Shown here: positions 1,078 to 52,608 of the stretch, piece by piece
Layout of the letters: every line of letters begins with the position of its first letter
How positions within the stretch are numbered: position 1 is the stretch's first letter
Assembly (NCBI RefSeq): GCF_019968905.1
Contig: NZ_CP079946.1
Location: forward strand, 1,736,001-1,800,000
Source of the DNA: Corallococcus sp. EGB
GTDB taxonomy: Bacteria; Myxococcota; Myxococcia; Myxococcales; Myxococcaceae
DNA: 64,000 nt
Direction: 5' to 3'
The notes under the pieces: model-generated
What the model was told of the DNA's origin: nothing
The model's input: the letters and a program-made list of their open reading frames with translations, nothing else
Database searches by the model: none
Translations under genes and position numbers: made by a program

Positions 1078-3825
1078 GTGGAAGCCTCTGACCCGAACTC
1101 GACTCACTCACTGGAAGCCGCCGCCCTGGAGTACGCGGGGCGCGGCTGGCATGTCTTCCCTTGCTTTGAACCCGTTCGCTCGCCCTCCGGCGCCGTCATT
1201 TGCGCTTGCCCCAAGGGAGCGGAGTGCAGCCAAGCGGGCAAACACCCACGCACACGCAACGGAGTGAAGGACGCCACGACGGACGAGGCCCAAATCCGCG
1301 AGTGGTGGCAGCAGTGGCCGTTCGCCAACGTCGCCATCGCCACGGGTGCCCTCTCCGGCGTGGATGTTGTGGACGCGGACGCGAAGGCCGACGGAGTGGC
1401 GACCCTCGTGAAGCTGGAAGAGGAACGAGGCGAACTGCCTGACACCGTCACGGCCCGCACCAGCGGCGGCGGTTGTCACGTCTACTTCCGCCACGCGGGC
1501 ATGGTGTCGAAGGCTGGCAGCCTTGCGCCCGGCATCGACACCCGGGGCAACGGCGGTTACGTCATCGCGCCCCCGAGCCTTCACCGCACGGGAGAGCGCT
1601 ACGCATGGCTTGAGGGAGCGTCCCCTTCCGAGCTTCCGCCCGCCGAAGCGCCGCAGTGGATTCGCGACGCAGCCCAAGCGAAGCGCACGCGCCCCACGCT
1701 CGCGAAGGGGGAATCGGCGGTGGGTACGTGGCAGCCGCCAACCCAGGATGGACTCACCGAGTCCCAGCTCTGGATGCGGTGGCACGCGACAAGCGCCCCG
1801 GAGCATGCGGCGGCGGTGAAGCGCATGAAGCAGGGCCAGCCCTTGTTCCCCTCTGGGCATCATGAAGGGAACCTCTGGGCCTTCATCTCGTACCTGCGCT
1901 TCAAGGCTCCCGAGGCATCGGACGCAACCGTGCTGCGGCTCTTGGCCCCGTCCGTGACGGCGATGAACTGCGCGAAGCACGACACCGCGCACGTTGCGGA
2001 ACGCCTCCGACGAATCAATGACGATTACGGCGCCGCGCTGGCCGAGTCCGCGCTGATCGCCGCTGCACTGAGAGGCGTGGCCGGGGCCCGCCCGTCAACC
2101 GAGACTCCTGTCCCCTCCGATGCGCCCCCTGGCGCCGACGGCTGGATGGCGGCTCCGGGCTACGCCATCCACGATGGACAGTCGCTCGGCATCTTCAAGC
2201 TCACCGACAAGGGCAACCTTTCCACCATCGCCTCCGCCCCCATCAACATCACCGAGACAGGGGAGGACGAGCACGGCACCTGCTACGTGACGGTGCGGTG
2301 GCGGTACGGGCAACGCGAGCGCGTGGAGACGATGCCGCGCGCCAAGGTCTCGGGGAACGAAATCCTGGAACTGGCCGGTCGCGGCGCGCCCCTCACCAGC
2401 AGCAACAGCAAGAAGGTCCAGGACTTCCTCCAAGCCCAGGAGCAGCACAGTCACGCGAGCTTGCCCCGGGTGCGCATCTTCACTCAGAGCGGCTGGTCCC
2501 ACGACATGAAGAGCTTCGTCGTGGGACGGCAGGTGATTGGCGAGCCCGGCCGCGTCATCATGCCCGGAGAGGCAGCCTTCCTCGATGCGCTCGTGTCGCG
2601 GGGCTCGGCGGATGAACACCTGCGCTTGATGCTGGCCGTTCGTGACAGGGGCCCCTTCGCTGAAATGGCGTGGGCTGCTGGCTTCGCGGCCCCTCTGTTG
2701 CGGCTCTTGGGCCTGCGCAGCATGTGCCTGTCCATCTGGGGCGCCTCGGGGACGGGGAAGTCCGCCGTGCAGGCCACCACCACGTCGGTGTGGGGGCGTC
2801 CTTCTGGCCTCAAGGTCAGCGGGGACGTCTCGTCAGCCGCGTTGCAGGGAGAGCTGTCCCGTCACCGCGACCTGCCCACCTGGATTGACGACACCCAAGT
2901 TACACGCGAGGGAATGACGAACCTCATGGCCTATATCGTGGGGACGGAGACGAGCGGCGCGCGGGCGACGCAGACCGGAGAGCTGCGCGCACGGAAGACC
3001 TGGCGCTCGCTGGCTTTCATCTCCGGCGAAAAGCCGCTGTTGCAGATTGGAGGCGCGGCAGGGGCGAAGAATCGCACGCTGGAGGTGTGCGCCCAGCCGT
3101 TGGGGGACGCGAGCCTCGCCACGCAAACGCACCAGGGCTTGGAGAAGCACCACGGCCACGCGGGGCCCGCCTTCATCCGCGCTCTCATGGAGCGCTACAC
3201 GGGCGCGGACCGACTCGACGAACTCCGCGAGCAACACCGCCAGCTCGCCGCCCAGATGGTGACGGAGACAGCGGAGCAAGCACGCTACGCCGCGCTCCTC
3301 GTGTTGGCCGACATACTCGCGCGCATCCACATCTGCGGCGAGGCCGATGCCCACGCCCAGGCAGCCGCGCTCGAAGCGGGGCACGCCTTCTGCGCGGCGG
3401 TGTTGAAGGAGTCCCGCGAGACGAGGACGACCGCCGACGCGGCCTATGACTTCATCATGAACTACGTCGCCGCGAACTGGTCCGGCTTTGAAAGCTCCTT
3501 CCCCATCAAGCGCCCCGGGATGGTGACGGACGACAGGGACTCCAGCGGGAGGCGGGTTGTCGCCATCTTCCAGACGACGATGCACGACATCGCGAGGGAA
3601 GGACGATTCGACACCCGACAGGTGATGACGGAGCTTGCCGCGAAGGGGTTGGTGTTCAAGGAAGACGGCCACCTGACGCGCAAGGTCTCCGTCGAGGGCA
3701 AGCGTGTGCGCGCCTATTGCTTGGTTCTCGATGACGAGAAGGTGGGGGCGGAGAACGCGCAGGGGGCATCGATTGCCCAGCGACTCCAGGCGCGCCCGTC
3801 GCAGATGGGGAGGGCGGCGTCATGA
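1078..3825 (+). CDS. Prim-Pol / DUF927 primase-helicase of a mobile element
   Basis: The N-terminal 200 residues form a bifunctional primase-polymerase domain: GRGWHVFPC near the start, an acidic VVDADAK motif, GGGCHVYF, and the RGNGGYVIAPPS signature. The C-terminal half is a DUF927-type helicase/ATPase with a Walker A motif (GASGTGKSA, about residue 555) and an acidic TWIDDT segment. Such fusions replicate or prime integrative elements, satellites and plasmids. I chose the GTG at 1078 because the domain begins almost at once; a TTG at 1036 would add 14 residues, and neither has a strong ribosome site. The stop overlaps the next start (ATGA), indicating translational coupling with the excisionase-like gene. 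Confidence 0.85.
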   Translation: MEASDPNSTHSLEAAALEYAGRGWHVFPCFEPVRSPSGAVICACPKGAECSQAGKHPRTRNGVKDATTDEAQIREWWQQWPFANVAIATGALSGVDVVDADAKADGVATLVKLEEERGELPDTVTARTSGGGCHVYFRHAGMVSKAGSLAPGIDTRGNGGYVIAPPSLHRTGERYAWLEGASPSELPPAEAPQWIRDAAQAKRTRPTLAKGESAVGTWQPPTQDGLTESQLWMRWHATSAPEHAAAVKRMKQGQPLFPSGHHEGNLWAFISYLRFKAPEASDATVLRLLAPSVTAMNCAKHDTAHVAERLRRINDDYGAALAESALIAAALRGVAGARPSTETPVPSDAPPGADGWMAAPGYAIHDGQSLGIFKLTDKGNLSTIASAPINITETGEDEHGTCYVTVRWRYGQRERVETMPRAKVSGNEILELAGRGAPLTSSNSKKVQDFLQAQEQHSHASLPRVRIFTQSGWSHDMKSFVVGRQVIGEPGRVIMPGEAAFLDALVSRGSADEHLRLMLAVRDRGPFAEMAWAAGFAAPLLRLLGLRSMCLSIWGASGTGKSAVQATTTSVWGRPSGLKVSGDVSSAALQGELSRHRDLPTWIDDTQVTREGMTNLMAYIVGTETSGARATQTGELRARKTWRSLAFISGEKPLLQIGGAAGAKNRTLEVCAQPLGDASLATQTHQGLEKHHGHAGPAFIRALMERYTGADRLDELREQHRQLAAQMVTETAEQARYAALLVLADILARIHICGEADAHAQAAALEAGHAFCAAVLKESRETRTTADAAYDFIMNYVAANWSGFESSFPIKRPGMVTDDRDSSGRRVVAIFQTTMHDIAREGRFDTRQVMTELAAKGLVFKEDGHLTRKVSVEGKRVRAYCLVLDDEKVGAENAQGASIAQRLQARPSQMGRAAS

Positions 3826-5319: not shown

Positions 5320-5394
5320 TGCCGAAGGCGGGATTCGAACCCGCAACCTCCGCGTTCTGAGCGCGGCGCCTCTACCAGGTTGGGCTACTCCGGC
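5320..5394 (-). tRNA. tRNA with anticodon CAG (leucine codon CTG), class I structure
   Basis: The minus strand folds into a complete cloverleaf of 75 bases: acceptor GCCGGAG/CTTCGGC with discriminator A, anticodon arm CCGCG-CTCAGAA-CGCGG, T arm GCGGG-TTCGAAT-CCCGC, and no encoded CCA. The anticodon reads CAG, which decodes the leucine codon CUG. The variable region has only five bases (AGGTT), whereas bacterial tRNA-Leu normally has a long variable arm. The D stem has three pairs plus a C-A mismatch. The isotype is therefore uncertain. The 3' end faces the integrase gene, so this is the probable integration target. Confidence 0.8.
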
Positions 5395-5421
5395 GGGGTG
5401 TGTCTGTGATTGGATTTGAAG

Positions 5422-5497
5422 TCGGGATGACTGGATTCGAACCAGCGACCTTGCGCGCCCGAGGCGCACGCTCTCAACCAGGCTGAGCTACATCCCG
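5422..5497 (-). tRNA. tRNA-Pro (anticodon CGG)
   Basis: A 76-base cloverleaf on the minus strand: acceptor CGGGATG/CATCCCG with the C1-G72 pair typical of bacterial tRNA-Pro and discriminator A, D arm GCTC/GAGC, anticodon loop CTCGGGC, variable region AGGTC, and T arm GCTGG-TTCGAAT-CCAGT. CCA is not encoded. It lies 27 bases upstream of the CAG tRNA on the same strand, so the two are probably processed from one precursor. Confidence 0.92.
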
Positions 5498-41936: not shown

Positions 41937-44631
41937 TCAGTGTTTTGGGGCGGGCATCCGTACCGTGACGGTTTCCTGCCGCCTGCCCAAGGTCACCTCC
42001 CTTTCGAACTCGTCCGACCCCAGGCTGACGGTCATGACGACGGGCGTGAAGGGGAGGTCCTCCACGTCGGCGCCACCTTCCGTGTCGAGGTTTCCGTAGA
42101 ACGTTCCGGGAGGCTGCCCCGTGTACTCAACTGCATCGTGCTCACTCGGGCCAATGAATGCGCGGGCGCCCACCAGGGGGGCTCCCGTCGCTTCGTCCAG
42201 GATGATGAAGCGCGTCCTGCGGCCTCGCTGCATCACCAGCGTTCCCAGGTCGATGTCCTTGTCGGGGCTCACGACCAGTTCCCGCTTGAGGTCGATGAAG
42301 CCCTTGGCCATCACGGTGATCTTCCCGGGGCCATCTTCCAGCAAGGGAAACGCGATGGCGCCGTCAGGCGCGGGCACCTGGTTGCGCCAGCCTCTCACCT
42401 CGCAGGGTACGGGGATTCCGTCTTCGTTCACGACCTGTCCGCGCAGCGTGGGACGTTTCTGCAGGACCAGCCGGATGTCTTCTGTCCCCGCCAGGACCTC
42501 CCGCGGTTGGCCCGGAGTTTCCGCCACGCGAGCGAGCGGGCACGAAGACATGACCCTCCTTCCACGCGACGAGTTGATAGGCCGAGCCCACCAGGCGATT
42601 GAGCACGAAGTGACCCCCTTGCCTGGAGAGAACGCCTTGCTCGAGGTCGGCGTCACATCGAGGGGGACGTGTCGGCCAAGCGGGATCCTTCTCCTGAACG
42701 AGACATGCTTGGACCCGGACGCCGGCCAATGGCTGTCCATCGGTGTCGACCGTCAGCCCCTTCACCGCGCGACCTTCCTCGAAGCGAAGCGACACAGTGG
42801 CCCGCGAGTGCGCTTCCAGGTCGACGGGCCGCGACAAGGACTGCTCGACGCCAGAGGTCTGGAGCCGGGCCTCCACCACGTAGTGTCCTGCCTTCAGCCC
42901 CGCAGCGGAGAAGGCGCCTTCGCCGTCCACCCGGAGGATGCGAGAGTCTCCATGCAGTGGCGGGGTGTCCCACAACAGGACCTCCGCGTGTGACAGCGGC
43001 ACTCCCTTCGCATCCAAGACCTTGCCGGACACGGAAGCCCCTCGGCTGAGGACCACGCGGACTCCCGTCGATGGGAACTCCACGGGTTGCTCCACGGGGG
43101 CGAAGTCCTCGGACTCGGCGAAGAGGTAGCCTGACCCCTTGGCCGCGGTGTCCAGGATGAAGTGACCATCGTCGTCCGACCGGACCTCAGTCTCTTCGAA
43201 GGAGTCACGGGTACTGATGTCGTCAGGGATGTTGGCGAGCAGCAACCGGATGCCTGGAAGCGGGGTGCCTTCGGTATCGACGACCTGGCCTTCGACCGAG
43301 CCCGTTGGCTGGAGTGTGAAGTCCCACGGTCCCGGATGCGGCGCGCGAAGGTCGACCTCCTCGGCCCTGTTGGTGTATCGAGCGCGCAGCAGTCGCAGGT
43401 GCAGGTGAGTCTGTCGCAGTGGCCCCAGCCGGTAGTGCCCTGCTGCATCCGAGCGGGCCTCTAGGGAGGCTTGGACTTCTTCCGGCAGGTTTCCTCCTCG
43501 CAGGCGCACACCCTCCAGGGGTCTGCCCCGCTCATCCCTCACCGTGCCCTCCATGAAGGTCACGGGCTCCAGCCGGATCACGATCCGCGCCGGAGGCGTC
43601 ACCGGGGCGTCGCCATAGGCGCTCCCATCCGGGGCCCAGGCCCAGACGGTGTGGTGAACCCCACTGACGTCCTCGAAGACGAACCGGCCCTGCGCATCGC
43701 TTCGCGTGGATTGGGTGTCGTCCGAGACGCCCGCGGCGAATGCGTGGAGGGTGACGCCGCTCGCGGGCCGTCCCTCCGGGGTGAGCACCAGTCCCTCGAG
43801 CTGGGCCTGCTTCCGCAACTCCAGGGTCATGTCCTCGTCGGCGTCGAGCCAGACGCCATCGCGGAAGGGGGTCGCCCGCCAGCCCTGCGCGCTCCCGACC
43901 CTCAGGTACCGGCCTGGAGGCACGGGGCCGATGCGGAAGCGCCCCTGGGCATTCGCGAGCGTGTCGAAGAAGCGGGACTGCGTATCCTGGACCGCCGTCA
44001 CCCGCGCACCGGGAATGGGAACCTGCGTGTCTTCATCCACCACGGTGCCGGAGAGGAAGATGCCTGCTTCCAGTGTCAGTGCCACGTCCGTGCTTCCCGC
44101 TGGCTCATCCGGCTGCATCGCCGTGCCCATATCGCCCTGGGCCCAGAGGGTGAACGCTCCGGCGGGCAGTCCATCCAGGATGAAGCTGCCATCGTGCGCT
44201 GTCACCGTCTGCGCGAACACGGGGGCTTCGCCCTCGCGGGCCTCCACGAGCCGCGCGAGTTCGAATCCCCGTTCATGAAAGCAGCACTTCGTCAGCCACG
44301 TCTTCCCGGCACAGGAGAACTCGCGGGACCGTGGTTCCAACGGGCAGGCGCGTTGCGAGAGGGAGTCCGCGTCCACTTGGGACGCGGACACACGCACGCC
44401 CGGGACCGGACCGCGCGCATCCCGCACGATGCCGCGGATGCGGAGGCTCTCCCTTGCGGAGGTCATGGCGAACGAGTCCGTATGGGAGCCCGGGACGCGC
44501 GCTGGACCGCTGGAGGAACTCCGGCCCGGAGGAGGCGAGGCGGCGTCACCTGAGCGCAGGAAGAGGGCCACGAGCAGCACCGCGATGATGCCCGCGACGA
44601 GGAACGCTGCCTGGCCATGTCCCCTCTTCAT
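41937..44631 (-). pseudogene. carboxypeptidase-regulatory-like repeat protein, paralog 3, broken by a +1 frameshift
   Basis: The first part (from 44631) has the family's anchor helix, linker and modules (RIRGIVRDARGPVPGVRVSASQ) and runs into an unrelated Arg/Pro-rich tail that stops at 42364. The missing continuation (ETPGQPREVLAGTEDIRLVL, ending VRMPAPKH at 41937) lies in another frame. Alignment with paralog 4 puts the switch after ARSRGG, at a TTT (plus strand, 42518-42520). Removing one T restores RGGTPGQPREVLAG and one continuous frame of 897 residues. Everything else is intact, so this is a recent mutation or an assembly error; the truncated product could still be made. Confidence 0.8.
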
Positions 44632-44667
44632 GCGCGTATCTCCCGGCGGTGAAGGCCCCCGTCCGGC

Positions 44668-47385
44668 TCAGCGGCCCGGAGCCGGCAGCGTCACCGTGAC
44701 GACGTCCTGCCGCGTCTCCACGATGCCTTCCCGATAGGGCTGACCTTCCTCCGTCATGACCTTGAAGTGGATGGGGGAGATGGGCAGGTCCTCGAACTCG
44801 ACCGTGCCCGTCATGTCGAGGTTCCCGTGAAACGAGGGCGGCATGGCGACCTCATACGGCCAGACATTCAGGGCGTAGCTCAGGTCGATGGTGACGCGGG
44901 CTCCCGCAAGGGGAGCGCGGGTCGCTTCATCCAGGATGTCGAACCGAACCTTCCGGCCCTTGAGCAGCTTCACGGTCCCCAGGTCGATGTCCTGACCGGG
45001 ACTCATTTCGACGAATCGCTCGAGGCCCAAGAAGCCCTTCGCGCTCACGGTCACCTGCCAGGTGCGGTCCTCCGGAAGGGGGAGGGCGAAACGGCCATCC
45101 AAGCGATGCTGCTCTGCCCGGGACACGGAGGTTGGATCCGGGCAGGCAACGACGAAGGTGGCCTCCTCGATTCGGACCGTGCTGGGAAGGGGCGCGCCGT
45201 TCTCATCCACGACCTGTGCTCTCAACCGGGGGGAGGGCTCCATGACCAACCGGATGTCGTCGGCTCCCGCCGGAACGCGCATGGAGCGCGGACCGGGTGT
45301 CCCGCCCCGCGAGCGGCCGGGCGCGAGGCGGAAGCCCTCCCTTGCGGCGACGAGCTGATACACCGGCGCGGTCAGATGTTTGAGGGTGAAGCGGCCGTCC
45401 GGTCCGGACCTCACACGGTCATCCTCCGTGGAGGCGCAACTCAGCATCCGCCCCCTTCCCGCGGAAGCGTCCTCTGGCGAGAGACAGGCCTGGACCCAGA
45501 CCCCTGCGAGGGGCTGGCCCGCGGCATCCGTCGTCACCCCGTGCAGCGTCCGACCCTCCTCCTCGAACCGCAGGACCACGTCCGCGTGGGCCCGCTCCTT
45601 CAGGTCGAGGGTCTGGGAAGCCCATTGCACGGCGCCCGGCGTGCGGTGCCAGGCCTCCAGCACGTAGCGGCCCGGCTTCAGTCCGCTCATCGAGAAGGCC
45701 CCGTGGCTGTCCGTGGAGATGGGGTCGGGTTGCGAGCGACCGCTCGAGGGCGTCGAACTCCAGAGACCGACACGCACCTCGGGCAGGGGTTGTCCCGTCG
45801 CATCCGTGATCGTGCCCGACACGGAGGCTCCCCGGTCCAGCACCAGGCGGACCCCTGTCGACGGTACCTTCACGGGGACCGTCAGGGGGATGAAGCCCTG
45901 GGGTTCGACGGAGAGGTCCCACGCGCCTGCATCGAGCGCACCCGCGACGAAGCGGCCCGCCTCGTCGGACTTGCCAAACGCATCCTCGAAGTTCATGGCC
46001 GCCAAGGTGAATCCACCGGAAGCGCTGGGCCGTCCCAGCGACAGGGACACGCCGGGGACAGGCTTGCCTTCGTCATCGACCAGGGTGCCGTCGACCGACT
46101 GGCCAGACGTGAGGGTGTAGTCCCATGGGCCGGTCCGTGCTCCACCCAGGAGCAGTTGCTCGCGTCGAACGCGGGAGTGGTCACCTTTGAGAGAGACGGT
46201 GACGGAGGTCTTGCTCAGCGGCCCCAGCCGGTAGTGACCGGCTTCGTCGGTGACAGTCTCTGGGGGAAGCTCGTCTCCAACGGTACCCGAGAGATCCTGC
46301 ACGAGCACCCCGCTCAGCGGACGCCCCTGTTCGTTCTTCACAGTGCCCTCGATGAACGGGCTGGGCCGCATCCGGATGACGGCGCTGCGGGCCGGAGTCA
46401 CCCAGCTGTCGCCATATGCGGTCTGGCCGTCGTTCCAGGCCCAGGCCGTGTACTCCCTGGGAGGGATGCCGTCGAAGACGAACCGTCCCCGGGCATCGCT
46501 CCGGGTCGTCAACGTCTCGCCAAACTCCGCGTTGGGCCGCAGGTGGACGGTCATGCCGCTCGCGGGGCGTCCCTCCTGCGTGAGGACCACGCCCTCGAGC
46601 CGTTGTCTCCTCTTGATCCCCAGCGTCACCTCCACGTCCGAGCTCAGCCAGACGTCCTCGCGGAAGGCATGGGGGACCCGGCCCTCCGCCCCCGCGACCT
46701 TCAGGTAGCGCCCCGGCGGAAGGGGCCCGATGCGGAAGTGTCCCTTGTCATCCGCGAGCACACGGAAGAAGCGGGACGCGGACTCGTGCACCGCCGTCAC
46801 CCATGCGCCTGGAATGGGCGTCTGCCCGTCGTCCTCCACCACCGCGCCGGAGAGGAAGAAGCCCGCATCCAGCGGGAAGGTCACGCCCTCGCTGCCGGCC
46901 TGCACCTCCTGTCGCACCGCCGCGCCCGTGTCGCCCAGCGCCCAGAGCGTGAAGGCGCCCGGCGGCAGTCCCTCGAGCACGAAGGTGCCATCCGTCCCCG
47001 TCACCGTCCGCGCGAACACGGGTGCTTCGCCTGCGCGGGCCTCCACGAGGCGTGCGGTAGACGCCGCCAGCTCCAGGAAGCAGTGTTCGACCGGTGTCTG
47101 CAGCGGACGGGCGCGCTCCGGGTGGGGACACGGACGCTGAGACACGCTGTCTGCGTCCACGCGCGTCGCGGACAGCTCCACCCCCGCGACAGGGCCTCGT
47201 GCATCGCGCACCGCGCCGGTGATGCGCAGCGGGCCCGGAGGCGGGGAGGGAAGGGGCCGCGTGGAACGCGTTCCCGCGCGGGCCGCCCTGGCGTCTGCGC
47301 TGGTCGCGTCTTGCAATGACACACAGGCCACGCTCCATCCGAAGAGGAACGCGACTGCCCCCCACCACGGCTTCCTGGCGCGCAT
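44668..47385 (-). CDS. carboxypeptidase-regulatory-like repeat protein, paralog 4 (905 aa)
   Basis: The signal sequence ends in GWSVACVSL, possibly a lipid-modified Cys. The chain of CarboxypepD_reg modules begins RITGAVRDARGPVAGVELSATR and has the family's Cys insert (VSQRPCPHP, EHCFLEL) and the conserved REGEAPVFA-type strand followed by GTFVLEGLPPGAFTLWALGD. It is the closest relative of the broken paralog 3 and shares its C-terminal end (ITLPAPGR versus VRMPAPKH type). It is the first gene of the four-gene block on this strand; the TIGR02588 gene ends 25 bases upstream. Confidence 0.8.
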   Translation of the reverse strand: MRARKPWWGAVAFLFGWSVACVSLQDATSADARAARAGTRSTRPLPSPPPGPLRITGAVRDARGPVAGVELSATRVDADSVSQRPCPHPERARPLQTPVEHCFLELAASTARLVEARAGEAPVFARTVTGTDGTFVLEGLPPGAFTLWALGDTGAAVRQEVQAGSEGVTFPLDAGFFLSGAVVEDDGQTPIPGAWVTAVHESASRFFRVLADDKGHFRIGPLPPGRYLKVAGAEGRVPHAFREDVWLSSDVEVTLGIKRRQRLEGVVLTQEGRPASGMTVHLRPNAEFGETLTTRSDARGRFVFDGIPPREYTAWAWNDGQTAYGDSWVTPARSAVIRMRPSPFIEGTVKNEQGRPLSGVLVQDLSGTVGDELPPETVTDEAGHYRLGPLSKTSVTVSLKGDHSRVRREQLLLGGARTGPWDYTLTSGQSVDGTLVDDEGKPVPGVSLSLGRPSASGGFTLAAMNFEDAFGKSDEAGRFVAGALDAGAWDLSVEPQGFIPLTVPVKVPSTGVRLVLDRGASVSGTITDATGQPLPEVRVGLWSSTPSSGRSQPDPISTDSHGAFSMSGLKPGRYVLEAWHRTPGAVQWASQTLDLKERAHADVVLRFEEEGRTLHGVTTDAAGQPLAGVWVQACLSPEDASAGRGRMLSCASTEDDRVRSGPDGRFTLKHLTAPVYQLVAAREGFRLAPGRSRGGTPGPRSMRVPAGADDIRLVMEPSPRLRAQVVDENGAPLPSTVRIEEATFVVACPDPTSVSRAEQHRLDGRFALPLPEDRTWQVTVSAKGFLGLERFVEMSPGQDIDLGTVKLLKGRKVRFDILDEATRAPLAGARVTIDLSYALNVWPYEVAMPPSFHGNLDMTGTVEFEDLPISPIHFKVMTEEGQPYREGIVETRQDVVTVTLPAPGR

Positions 47386-49649: not shown

Positions 49650-50837
49650 TCATCCGGCGGGGCACGCCGCGCCCGCGTCGAGCACGTCCGTGTCGTGGTG
49701 CACCTGCACCGCGCCGGACGCTTCGAGGTGGCGCACGAACAGCGAGCCGAACACCTCCGCGTTGCCGCTCAGGTTGAGTGGGGCCTGGGGCGCGTAGACG
49801 TTGCCGGCGAGGGTGCTACCCGCGGAGATGTCCAACGCCTGCGTGCCCGCGACGTAGACGCGCACGCGCGAGGGCAGGGCGGCGGAGCCCAGCGTAAGCT
49901 GGCCGGACACGATGAAGCCCCCGGCGAGGAAGAGGTCCAGCTCGCCCGGCGGCTGTACATCGATGGTGAGTGCTTCCTTCAGGTCCACGCCGCCGGGGAT
50001 GAACAGCGCGGTACGGCCCCGGATGCGCAGCGTGGCGTGGCCTGGCCCCTCGATGCGTGTGAGCAGGAAGCGGCCACAGGGCAGCTCCAGCACGCGCTGG
50101 CCGGTGACGTCCGTCAGCGCCGCTGGATCCAGCCCGATGACCGCGTTGTCGTTGTCCACGGTGTGGTGAGCGATGAGCGCGGCCGGGTCGAAGCGCGAGC
50201 CCTCGTCGCAGTCGCAGGGGGTGACCGAGGGCACGGGCTCACGGCGCAGCTCGGAGGCCTGCGCGGGACCGGGGGAGAACCCGGGAGGAACGGTGAGCAC
50301 TCCGCCCACGGTGAGCGACGCGAGCGCCACGTCCCCGTTCACCCGGGCGTCCCCGGCCACGGTGGCGGAGGTCCCCGGACCGGAGAGCGGCCCGTTGCTG
50401 TCCAGGTTGCCGCCGACGCTGAGGGGGCTGCTAAGCTGGACGCTTCCCACCTGGAGCGAACCGCCCACCGTGACGCGGTCGTTCGCGGACAGGCCGCCGT
50501 TCACGCCCACGTCGCCGCCCGCGCCACCGGGCGCGTAGGGCCCCGCCGAGCTTCGGAATGCATCGACTTTGAAAGGGGCACTGAGGGACAAGCCTTCACA
50601 GGAGCACGCCGCGCGGCGGAACAGCGTCTGCGCCAGTTGGCCGCTGCAGAGCTGAGGCCCCGAGGCAGGATTCCCCAGCAGGAGCGGAGGACCGCTGTCC
50701 GCGCAGTGCGCCATCCATTCATCCGGGATGCCAGTCCCCGCGTCGGGCGAACGCAGCGTGGCCACAGGATCGTTCACCGTGCACGCCGTGCCCAGCAGTG
50801 CGACCCACGGCGTGTACCGTGCGATGCGGAAGCTCAT
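49650..50837 (-). CDS. exported protein with polymer-type beta repeats, possible lipoprotein (395 aa)
   Basis: A short signal (YTPWVALLGTAC) may end in a lipidated Cys19, though the lipobox is not ideal. The mature part has many Cys in its first third. A repetitive beta segment follows (NGGLSANDRVTVGGSLQVGSVQLSSPLSVGGNLDSNGPL), resembling polymer-forming, bactofilin-like or PilX-associated folds, and then a late beta-helix-like part (LFLAGGFIVSGQLTLGSAALPSRVRVYVAG). It lies downstream of the sigma/TPR/outer-membrane operon on the same strand, across the palindrome array. An envelope role is likely; the exact function is unknown. Confidence 0.6.
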   Translation of the reverse strand: MSFRIARYTPWVALLGTACTVNDPVATLRSPDAGTGIPDEWMAHCADSGPPLLLGNPASGPQLCSGQLAQTLFRRAACSCEGLSLSAPFKVDAFRSSAGPYAPGGAGGDVGVNGGLSANDRVTVGGSLQVGSVQLSSPLSVGGNLDSNGPLSGPGTSATVAGDARVNGDVALASLTVGGVLTVPPGFSPGPAQASELRREPVPSVTPCDCDEGSRFDPAALIAHHTVDNDNAVIGLDPAALTDVTGQRVLELPCGRFLLTRIEGPGHATLRIRGRTALFIPGGVDLKEALTIDVQPPGELDLFLAGGFIVSGQLTLGSAALPSRVRVYVAGTQALDISAGSTLAGNVYAPQAPLNLSGNAEVFGSLFVRHLEASGAVQVHHDTDVLDAGAACPAG

Positions 50838-50985
50838 GGGCCTGTCGCCATGCCCCGTCCTGTGCGGGAGGCTCCTGACGCGTCATCGACAGCGCTCCGG
50901 GGCGCGTGCCGCAAGTGGACGCACTGCACGCTGTATGCCATGCGGCCTGGCCATCCAAGACGTTCCCCCCTCGCCCGAAACATCC

Positions 50986-51678
50986 AAACCTGTCCGACTG
51001 TCCGACAGGATTGCGACGCCCGGCCCAACCCGTCCGACAGTCGGACAGGTTTCCGAAGTCCGGCCGGCGCGGACGCTCCGAGCGGCCAGCCCAATTGCTC
51101 CGACAGTCCGAGAGGTTTCCCGCGCGAGGTCCAACCGGTCCGACAATCGGACAGGTTTCCCTGGCCAGAGCGCTCGCCCCAGCTGCGGTGCTCCAACCCG
51201 ACTGACTGTCCGACAGGTTTCCTCCGTTCGCCCAAGCGGTCCGACAGGTTTTCCCATTGCCCGTTCGAAGCGGGTGCCCCGTGCCGCGGCCATTCCGACC
51301 TGTCCGACAGTCGGACAGGTTTCTGGTGCCCGGATGGCGTGGCGACTCCCTGGCCCCGCACCTCCTCACAGGTCCGACAGTCGGACAGGTTTCTGGTGCC
51401 TGGATGGCGTGGCGACTCCCTGGGCCTCGCTTCTCCTGACCGGTCCGACAGTCGGACAGGTTTCTGGTGCCTGGATGGCGCGGCGGCTCCTCGGACCCCG
51501 CTGCTCCTTGCCGGTCTGACTGTCGGACAGGTTCGTGCGGTGCTCCGGTCAAGGGGCGGCTCCACGGACCCCGCCCCTCCTGGCCGGTCCGACTGTCGGA
51601 CTGGTTTTGGCCGCCGTGATGGCGCGGCGGCTCCTCGGGCCCCGCTTCTCGTGGCCTGTCCGACTGTCAGACAGGTTC
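50986..51678. repeat. array of 12 imperfect 27-bp palindromes
   Basis: The unit is a palindrome with 13-base arms (AAACCTGTCCGAC and its complement) around one central A/T. Centres are at about 50999, 51039, 51105, 51145, 51207, 51243 (half unit), 51309, 51379, 51450, 51521, 51594 and 51665. Spacing alternates about 40 and 66 in the left half and is a steady 70-73 in the right half. The array fills the gene-free stretch between the TPR gene stop and the lipoprotein gene start. It may be a multi-operator region, a set of transcribed hairpins, or a REP-like element. Nothing here favours a coding role. Confidence 0.85.
51296..51678. repeat. tandem repeat of about 71 bp containing the palindromes
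   Basis: In the right half of the array the sequence between palindromes is itself repeated: TTTCTGGTGCC(T/C)GGATGGC then GTGGCGACTCCCTGG or GCGGCGGCTCCTCGG, then a CGC..CTCCT run. A second spacer type (GTGCGGTGCTCCGGTCAAGG) occurs twice, at about 51534 and 51679. The array therefore grew by duplication of palindrome plus spacer, unlike CRISPR, where spacers are unrelated. Confidence 0.75.
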
Positions 51679-51807
51679 GTGCGGTGCTCCGGTCAAGGGG
51701 CGGCCCCGCTGGGTTCTTGGCTTCCAGCAATGTGGTGGGAACTCGTGTCCAGAGGCCTGATGGACGGGGCATGGCTCGACGTGGGCTGCTCCACGGTTCG
51801 CCTCGCC

Positions 51808-52608
51808 TCATGGAGGCGACAGCTCCCGGAGCCTCGCGCGCGACGCCGTGCTCAGCGGCGAGTCCGGATGCAGCGCGAGGAACTCCTCCAGCGCTCGGGC
51901 CTCCGCCGTGGCATCGCCTAGGGCCCGGTGTGCTTCGGCCACGCCGTGGCGCGCCTCCGGATCCAACATTCCACCGGGCTGCAACCGCACGGCGTCCTCG
52001 AACTGGCGCAGGGCTCCTCGCGCGTCACGCAGGTGCTCCAGCCGCAGCGACCCCGACGCCACGCGCGCGACGTACGCGGCCAGCGACGACGGCTCCGCGC
52101 GGATGACGCGCAGGTACAGCCCTTCCGCCTCCGCCCACTTCCCTTCGGAACGGAGCGCATTGGCCTGGCGCAGCAGGTCCTCCGGCTTGGAGGACTCCTT
52201 CACCGTGATGCTCGGGCGCAGCGGGCGGGGATGCTCGATGACGAAGGGCTCGGGGGGCGCTGGCGGAGGCAGGGGCACCGGCTCCAGCGTGGCCACCCGC
52301 GTCGGCTCCGGGACGGCCGGTGTCAGCACCACCGGCCGCGGCTGCTCGGGGAGCGCATAGCGCCAGACGGCGGCGGCCGCGGCCCCGGTGAAGACGAGCG
52401 CCGCGCCCGCCATCAACCACACGGGAGGCCGCCTGCGTCCGCGCGGAGGCGCTGGCGCCTGCTGGAGCGCCGCGTCCAGCGCTGCCTGGACGAGCGCGCT
52501 TGAGCGCTGTCGGGACAACCGCCGCGCCGGGCCACTGCCGCCGTCCAGGGGCCGCAGCAGGTCGTCCATCGGCGCTGCCTCACCATCGTCGGGGGGGAGG
52601 GGACTCAT
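51808..52608 (-). CDS. membrane TPR protein, probable regulator of the upstream sigma factor (266 aa)
   Basis: The cytosolic N-terminus (about 1-60) contains a possible sigma-interacting helix (RQRSSALVQAALDAALQQ). One transmembrane helix follows (VWLMAGAALVFTGAAAAAVW), then a Pro-rich periplasmic linker and a C-terminal region with TPR-like helices (LLRQANALRSEGKWAEAEGLYLRVIRAEP, GDATAEARALEEFLALHP). The architecture fits myxobacterial transmembrane partners of ECF sigma factors. It overlaps the sigma gene by four bases, supporting an anti-sigma role. Confidence 0.68.
   Translation of the reverse strand: MSPLPPDDGEAAPMDDLLRPLDGGSGPARRLSRQRSSALVQAALDAALQQAPAPPRGRRRPPVWLMAGAALVFTGAAAAAVWRYALPEQPRPVVLTPAVPEPTRVATLEPVPLPPPAPPEPFVIEHPRPLRPSITVKESSKPEDLLRQANALRSEGKWAEAEGLYLRVIRAEPSSLAAYVARVASGSLRLEHLRDARGALRQFEDAVRLQPGGMLDPEARHGVAEAHRALGDATAEARALEEFLALHPDSPLSTASRARLRELSPP

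Follow-up and report, generated by a model that had tools for sequence, protein, structure and literature searches.

The palindrome array at positions 50986–51678 of the window, the stretch of 64,000 nucleotides analyzed here (positions 1736001–1800000 of the 9.43-Mb single-contig genome of Corallococcus sp. EGB, G000:C1), belongs to a family of interspersed repeats that are modular, form hairpins, are specific to the genus and vary in unit number from site to site. In Corallococcus, a genus of predatory bacteria, the palindrome holds a fixed position before the gene of a FadR-like GntR regulator, and the copy numbers of the two are correlated. Furthermore, the single centre base of the palindrome is polarized by replichore in two complete genomes, G000 and G028. 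The best joint explanation, to which a probability of roughly 0.6 is given, is a BOX-like repeat whose palindrome would be the operator of the FadR-like regulator and whose centre base would be set by template switching.

Array in the window

Eleven units of an odd palindrome, 27 bp long, and one half-site make up the array. The consensus of the palindrome is AAACCTGTCCGAC-W-GTCGGACAGGTTT, with 13-bp arms around one centre base, and each unit differs from it by 2–7 mismatches. The array is located in a 970-bp gap (50838–51807) between genes for a DUF7305 protein and a TPR protein, both on the minus strand. The features are as follows; no strand is assigned to the palindrome units and the half-site.

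49650–50837, minus strand: flanking gene for a DUF7305 protein, with a weak ice-binding-like adhesive match; 148 bp lie between its start and the array upstream of it
50986–51012: palindrome unit 1, centre T, begins with AAACC
51026–51052: palindrome unit 2, centre A
51092–51118: palindrome unit 3, centre A, 7 mismatches
51132–51158: palindrome unit 4, centre A
51194–51220: palindrome unit 5, centre T
51234–51252: collapsed half-site, a single GTCCGAC heptamer, read directly
51296–51322: palindrome unit 6, centre A
51366–51392: palindrome unit 7, centre A
51437–51463: palindrome unit 8, centre A
51508–51534: palindrome unit 9, centre T
51581–51607: palindrome unit 10, centre T
51652–51678: palindrome unit 11, centre T
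51679–51735, minus strand: right end module; its purine-rich box is decayed, with 6 mismatches of 16 to the box motif, below the cut-off
51808–52608, minus strand: flanking gene for a TPR protein; the array is downstream of its stop

Unit starts are separated by 40, 66, 40, 62, 102, 70, 71, 71, 73 and 71 bp, and the collapsed half-site (~51234–51252), which has one heptamer and not two, falls within the 102-bp gap. The sequence-only reading had described a dozen 27-bp palindromes with one collapsed half site, 13-base arms around one central base, a spacing of about 40/66 on the left and 70–73 on the right, and a 970-base intergenic gap with same-strand neighbors; unit alignment and measured spacings bear out this description, and its coordinates hold. 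Between the units, the palindrome arms are 88% identical and adjacent spacers 43%. All matches to the 15-bp core with 0–2 mismatches in the window are inside the array; at up to 3 mismatches the window has 31 matches against a shuffle mean of 14.9, and 2 of 100 shuffles reach 31.

Elsewhere in the window, two adjacent large minus-strand genes at 42364–47385 are alike by eye, possibly through tandem duplication, and two tRNA genes lie side by side on the minus strand at 5320–5497.

Dispersed repeat family in the genus

A search of the genome and related genomes for the palindrome, as the sequence-only reading had proposed, finds it at 53 loci of G000, with 1–20 units each, and cores in all 16 same-genus genomes. 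The exact 15-mer core, GTCCGACAGTCGGAC, occurs 124 times (64 + 60) in the whole G000 genome and 3–157 times per genome among the 16, and the reversed pattern is absent from all of them. Six of these genomes are low-copy, with only 3–18 cores. Among the other 80 genomes of the family, any core is found in seven, and the reversed pattern once in each of two. Of at least 119 core-bearing stretches in named genomes, the 80 listed comprise 71 from Corallococcus, seven from one Myxococcaceae metagenome bin, one from Hyalangium and one from a Gemmatimonadaceae bin. Nine arbitrary 20-kb stretches of G000 contain no palindrome unit at up to 7 mismatches.

The G000 loci were found by exact cores, and the list for a wider core pattern ends at 2.7 Mb, so that wholly degenerate loci are missed. 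Locus counts leave out four stray clusters without a unit under 5 mismatches (L134, L135, L143, and L161) and one fetched locus with no unit (L123); the two arrays of L138 count as two loci, though an insertion sequence separates them.

Because the palindromes are scattered genome-wide, which the sequence-only reading itself had named as the sign of a repeat, a dispersed repeat is the preferred reading of the array. The selfish REP-like repeat suggested there stands as to its genome-wide scatter and its REP-like style, and fails as to a RAYT partner: a profile search for the Y1/RAYT transposase (PF01797) found none in the 16 same-genus genomes, and the same search found it in 5 of 14 well-known genomes used as control. 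A RAYT-driven REP is thus rejected. Carriage by phages or plasmids was also rejected, since an array (L139) used as query matched none of 50,697 phage and 72,556 plasmid records, and two viral contigs that hold the 18-mer of the palindrome have no regulator in the ~10 kb available. In one of these contigs, L390, a repetitive reading frame has two copies of the core 45 bp apart (3497–3560), probably an unrelated occurrence. A literature search found no published account of the palindrome repeat, subscription papers being mostly out of reach; a repetitive sequence in Myxococcus xanthus was reportedly described by Fujitani and others in 1991.

Element anatomy and folding

Many loci share their ends. 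From one side to the other, an element has a purine-rich box, a GC-rich arm, palindrome + spacer units and an inverted GC-rich arm. With a cut-off of at most 5 of 16 mismatches, the box motif, GGATGAGAAGGNGAGAACCC, is recognized at 19 of 53 loci, and the G018 and G020 orthologues of the array have a clear box, unlike the decayed copy in the window. Judged by eye, unit periods cluster near 70, 50, 58, and 38 bp. In the 23 arrays with at least five units, arms are 87% identical between units and adjacent spacers 48%. The elements are visibly GC-rich.

A single long hairpin is the predicted fold of each of two boxed single elements (z −5.8 and −7.1), and a period-50 element folds more weakly (z −2.4). 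Two units of the window differ in this respect (z −3.6 and +0.7), and the whole window array gives z −5.3 in 20 shuffles only. Eight boxed single elements together yield a predicted consensus hairpin, some outer pairs of which do not form in one or two of the elements; no covariation is claimed for it because double changes are seen at only 2 of 23 pairs. When two single elements were compared for a clean empty site or target duplication, their flanks were rearranged or too diverged.

Gene settings

By a simple reading-frame caller, 50 loci of G000 have both neighbors called, 28 in tandem, 14 convergent and 8 divergent; no clear preference for promoters appears in these raw counts. Forty-two of the 53 loci are outside called frames and 11 overlap one, real or spurious. 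Two arrays sit within long open frames. One of them (L144, G000:C1:4360737–4361451) has 13 units with a period of 57 (one of 60), in frame inside an NRPS gene, and its units add a repeated EPVGQSDRF-like peptide; the other (L140, G000:C1:2696695–2696794) has two units 72 bp apart.

A transposase-like insertion sequence, with frames of 399 and 409 aa and ends CCTGAAGG..., is located inside one array (L138, 3698–4976), flanked by repeated TTCCGAA. The insertion sequence also adjoins the array in L143, on its right side, so that arrays may be insertion targets.

FadR-like regulator downstream of the palindrome

Immediately downstream of period-50 arrays there is a multi-copy gene, whose product is a FadR-like GntR regulator; one of its G000 copies is at G000:C1:5171828–5172526. 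The product matches PF00392, for which Pfam names the N-terminal domain only, and its best phmmer match among PDB sequences is PdhR (E 1.8e-6). The AlphaFold model (mean pLDDT 83) has E. coli FadR (1e2x) as its best Foldseek match (E 5.7e-7), with a whole-chain TM of only 0.52 and an rmsd of 9.2. Its architecture, an N-terminal winged helix followed by an all-helical C-terminal domain, is that of FadR-like GntR regulators.

The palindrome is found 86–224 bp upstream of all 44 regulator copies examined, out of 114 matches at E 1e-20. For example, it precedes 9 of 9 copies in G000 by 86–126 bp, and the exact core precedes 8 of 8 copies in G028 by 97–125 bp. In G018, the exact core lies 96–167 bp upstream of all nine copies (of 12) within the listed range, which covers 100 of its 155 core sites. 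A further sample was chosen by protein similarity: among its 30 loci, 26 have a strong regulator match and 24 of these have upstream DNA, and in all 24 a palindrome with 0–6 mismatches is present 87–224 bp before the match. Adding the copies left over in G000, in G028 and in the listed range of G018 brings the number of different copies to 44. Four of the six low-copy genomes (G021, G023, G024, and G026) have a single regulator gene with a single palindrome before it.

Regulator matches at E 1e-20 and exact cores (regulator/core) number 9/124 in G000, 12/148 in G016, 9/79 in G017, 12/155 in G018, 13/101 in G019, 11/77 in G020, 1/5 in G021, 15/157 in G022, 1/10 in G023, 1/5 in G024, 0/5 in G025, 1/3 in G026, 6/69 in G027, 8/84 in G028, 11/124 in G029 and 4/18 in G030, where the regulator counts of G020, G027, and G029 include partial matches. 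With kinship ignored, the two numbers are correlated over the 16 genomes (Spearman rho 0.91) and over the ten high-copy genomes alone (rho 0.72, p 0.018); the relation falls short of significance in the six low-copy genomes (rho 0.54, p 0.27). Cores are present without a regulator at E 1e-20 in G025 (5 cores) and G006 (12 cores).

Other genera are also rich in relatives of the regulator, with 31 matches in G037 and 16 in G039. A strict palindrome scan of 20 stretches with such relatives, 18 of them with upstream DNA, found none like the Corallococcus palindrome. A different palindrome paired with the regulator in those genera was also rejected, since the 18 regions yield just one, unrelated palindrome (L324). 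The relatives in G037 and G039 have a similar leader (TGTCAG...ATGG) before the start, with no palindrome in the copies examined. G079, of another genus, has a palindrome upstream of the regulator that is decayed as judged by eye, and also a core-bearing copy ~0.3 kb downstream of the gene. A leader motif, GTMNKAC, at about −53 occurs in 5 of 18 non-Corallococcus leaders and in 0 of 7 G037 leaders, and for this reason it is not taken as evidence.

The consensus of FadR-subfamily sites is GTM-N(0–1)-KAC, in which GT and AC are mostly 3 nt apart (PMC4494728), and the palindrome core fits this consensus twice, as two overlapping sites GTC-S-GAC 8 bp apart. Over 203 units, the most variable positions of the core are the two half-site centres and the main centre: the former are C or G in 198 and 195 units, and the latter is A or T in 191. 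Such S/S/W variation is expected if symmetry alone matters at those positions. At the half-site centres, GG prevails over CC in 13 versus 7 loci, which is not significant.

The palindrome is, most likely, the operator of the multi-copy FadR-like GntR regulator, as predicted from these sequence features and from its place before every copy examined. The operator for a dimeric repressor envisaged in the sequence-only reading is hereby revived as a regulator-linked palindrome (44 of 44 upstream), and the control of the window locus that went with it finds nothing in its support. Since four of the low-copy genomes have a single gene with a single palindrome and both are numerous in high-copy genomes, the operator was probably captured by the repeat or was its source. 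We infer that regulator and palindrome were amplified jointly.

Centre base and replication direction

In G000, a DnaA-type motif is present at the contig start, and the GC skew changes sign between ~5.4 and 5.8 Mb. By the majority centre base of each locus on the plus strand, replichore 1 has 24 A loci and 6 T loci, and replichore 2 has 4 and 18 (p 1.4e-5; 52 loci, one tied locus left out). In G028, whose origin was put at ~2.03 Mb by sampled GC skew, the A:T ratios of the two replichores are 16:4 and 2:17 (p 1.7e-5, three ties left out). The polarity is weak in G018 (p 0.09 over the loci listed, 100 of 155 sites) and is not significant in single-unit loci of G000 alone (14 loci, p 0.27), and many exceptions are found inside arrays.

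On the leading strand, A prevails at the centre in either element orientation (p 0.027 and 0.016), and the orientation is independent of replichore (p 0.55). The purine side of the spacers served to call the orientation; where the box gives a call as well, the two coincide in 17 of 17 cases. Transcription direction was rejected as the cause, since the centre follows the replichore at 11 of 12 loci whose flanking genes are transcribed against the fork. Base skew was also rejected: the leading-strand AT skew in fetched stretches of the two replichores is −0.011 and −0.025, that is, slightly more T than A, opposite to the bias of the centre. Near regulator genes the centre follows the replichore in 13 of 22 loci, that is, without polarity, and at other loci in 94 of 113; these numbers pool three genomes, between which orthologous loci are dependent, and the loci were split post hoc.

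According to PMC8604942, template switching at inverted repeats homogenizes the arms and inverts the spacer, and it can be stronger on the leading strand under some conditions, as stated in PMC6357072. We infer that replication-coupled template switching sets the centre base of the palindrome.

Alternative explanations

A purely selfish, BOX- or MITE-like hairpin repeat could have been inserted once before the ancestral regulator gene and co-duplicated with it, unbound by the regulator, the palindrome being conserved through mobility or template-switch homogenization only. Scatter over all gene settings, two arrays within long reading frames (one an NRPS), outer inverted arms with a long hairpin in single elements (z −7.1 and −5.8, consensus from eight), and the absence of the palindrome from other-genus regulator relatives are all as such a repeat would have them. 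However, the core has two fits to the FadR-subfamily consensus and symmetric S/W centres, the placement near the regulator start is 44 of 44, copy numbers correlate among the high-copy genomes too, and the PF01797 search offers no transposase candidate (0/16). We consider this explanation unlikely, though still one to be reckoned with.

The array could also be a multimeric operator for a local repressor of the DUF7305 gene or of the sigma/TPR operon, as its start 148 bp upstream of the DUF7305 gene would permit. This is improbable: related elements are present at 52 other loci of G000, and the orthologous site is variable. It has 11 units in G000, seven in G020, two each in G018, G016, and G019, and one clear unit in G022. 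Among the 15 congeners, of which G029 is left out, nine have no unit though both flanks match, and five have units. The two flanking genes almost touch at this site in G028 and G017.

Transcribed hairpins in a row, acting as terminators or insulators of transcription or as stabilizers of RNA, are given equally little credence. Strong folds are predicted for two single elements and for the whole array (z −5.3, 20 shuffles only), but positions 50700–51900 of the window have only one terminator-like site, against a shuffle mean of 0.5, and convergent settings account for 14 of 50 loci (a raw count). Rfam has no match over seven element loci up to E 0.5, and its scan of the window returned two tRNAs only and nothing over the array; a known Rfam structured RNA is rejected on these grounds.

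Finally, a replication-polarized chromosome-organization signal, as KOPS and matS are, with the centre base read as direction, would agree with the polarity found in G000 and G028 and, in part, in a third genome, but is scarcely credible given that the asymmetry is one base in a palindrome with many exceptions inside arrays; nor would it be essential to the genus, because six same-genus genomes hold only 3–18 copies.

Proposed mechanism

In the preferred explanation, the BOX-like repeat with a FadR-like regulator operator, the repeat is built from an end module, n × (27-bp palindrome + spacer) and an inverted end module. The candidate regulator would bind the palindrome as its operator, and this operator would have been amplified into the repeat, either captured by it or giving rise to it. 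The dispersed palindromes may in turn serve as arrays of decoy or potential operators. Replication-coupled switching of template from one arm to the other would invert the centre and leave A on the leading strand. More tentatively, the regulator and its own operator may have spread together: as a self-amplifying hairpin repeat, the operator would strew FadR-type operator arrays over the genome while regulator genes multiply alongside, which would expand the regulon or supply decoys, and the centre base, driven by the replication fork, would record fork direction.

Likeness to known systems

Two different end modules and variable tandem inner modules are found both in the present repeat and in the BOX elements of Streptococcus pneumoniae (boxA-boxB(n)-boxC). 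BOX elements are also predicted to form stem-loops and differ in complement between strains (PMC3049150), features that they share with the repeat. The difference lies in the inner module, whose odd palindrome of 27 bp is here also the mark of one regulator family, and in the host, which is GC-rich and of a different phylum. The likeness is therefore one of the way of working only, with no sequence relation claimed, and the repeat is said to work like a BOX element, not filed as one.

Like REP/BIME sequences with RAYT, the repeat consists of short palindromes in high copy number, single or in spaced arrays, mostly outside called genes; unlike them, it has no PF01797 gene in any of the 16 genomes. 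A MITE with an internal minisatellite in Porphyromonas gingivalis, as presented in PMC4596501, similarly has inverted ends around a tandem array, whereas here the PF01797 search gave no parent transposase, and the flanks compared for a target duplication were rearranged or too diverged. Single elements share the inverted ends and highly base-paired structure of MITEs. However, MITEs are AT-rich according to PMC3049150, and the present elements are visibly GC-rich.

With the FadR subfamily of GntR regulators, the regulator shares its fold and the palindrome a core, GTC-N-GAC, that falls within GTM-N-KAC with GT and AC 3 nt apart. FadR-subfamily operators are normally few. In contrast, two overlapping sites 8 bp apart here form one long palindrome in more than 100 copies. 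Template switching at inverted repeats yields homogenized arms and an inverted spacer (PMC8604942), as is proposed for this repeat; what differs here is the genome-wide polarity of a one-base spacer, for which a direction of flipping is proposed.

Significance

Few interspersed repeats of bacteria have a candidate DNA-binding partner; for this one, a FadR-like regulator can be named. The polarity of the centre base would give a natural genome-wide readout of template switching, with element orientation as an internal control. Furthermore, repeat and regulator bear on how new regulons arise by operator amplification.
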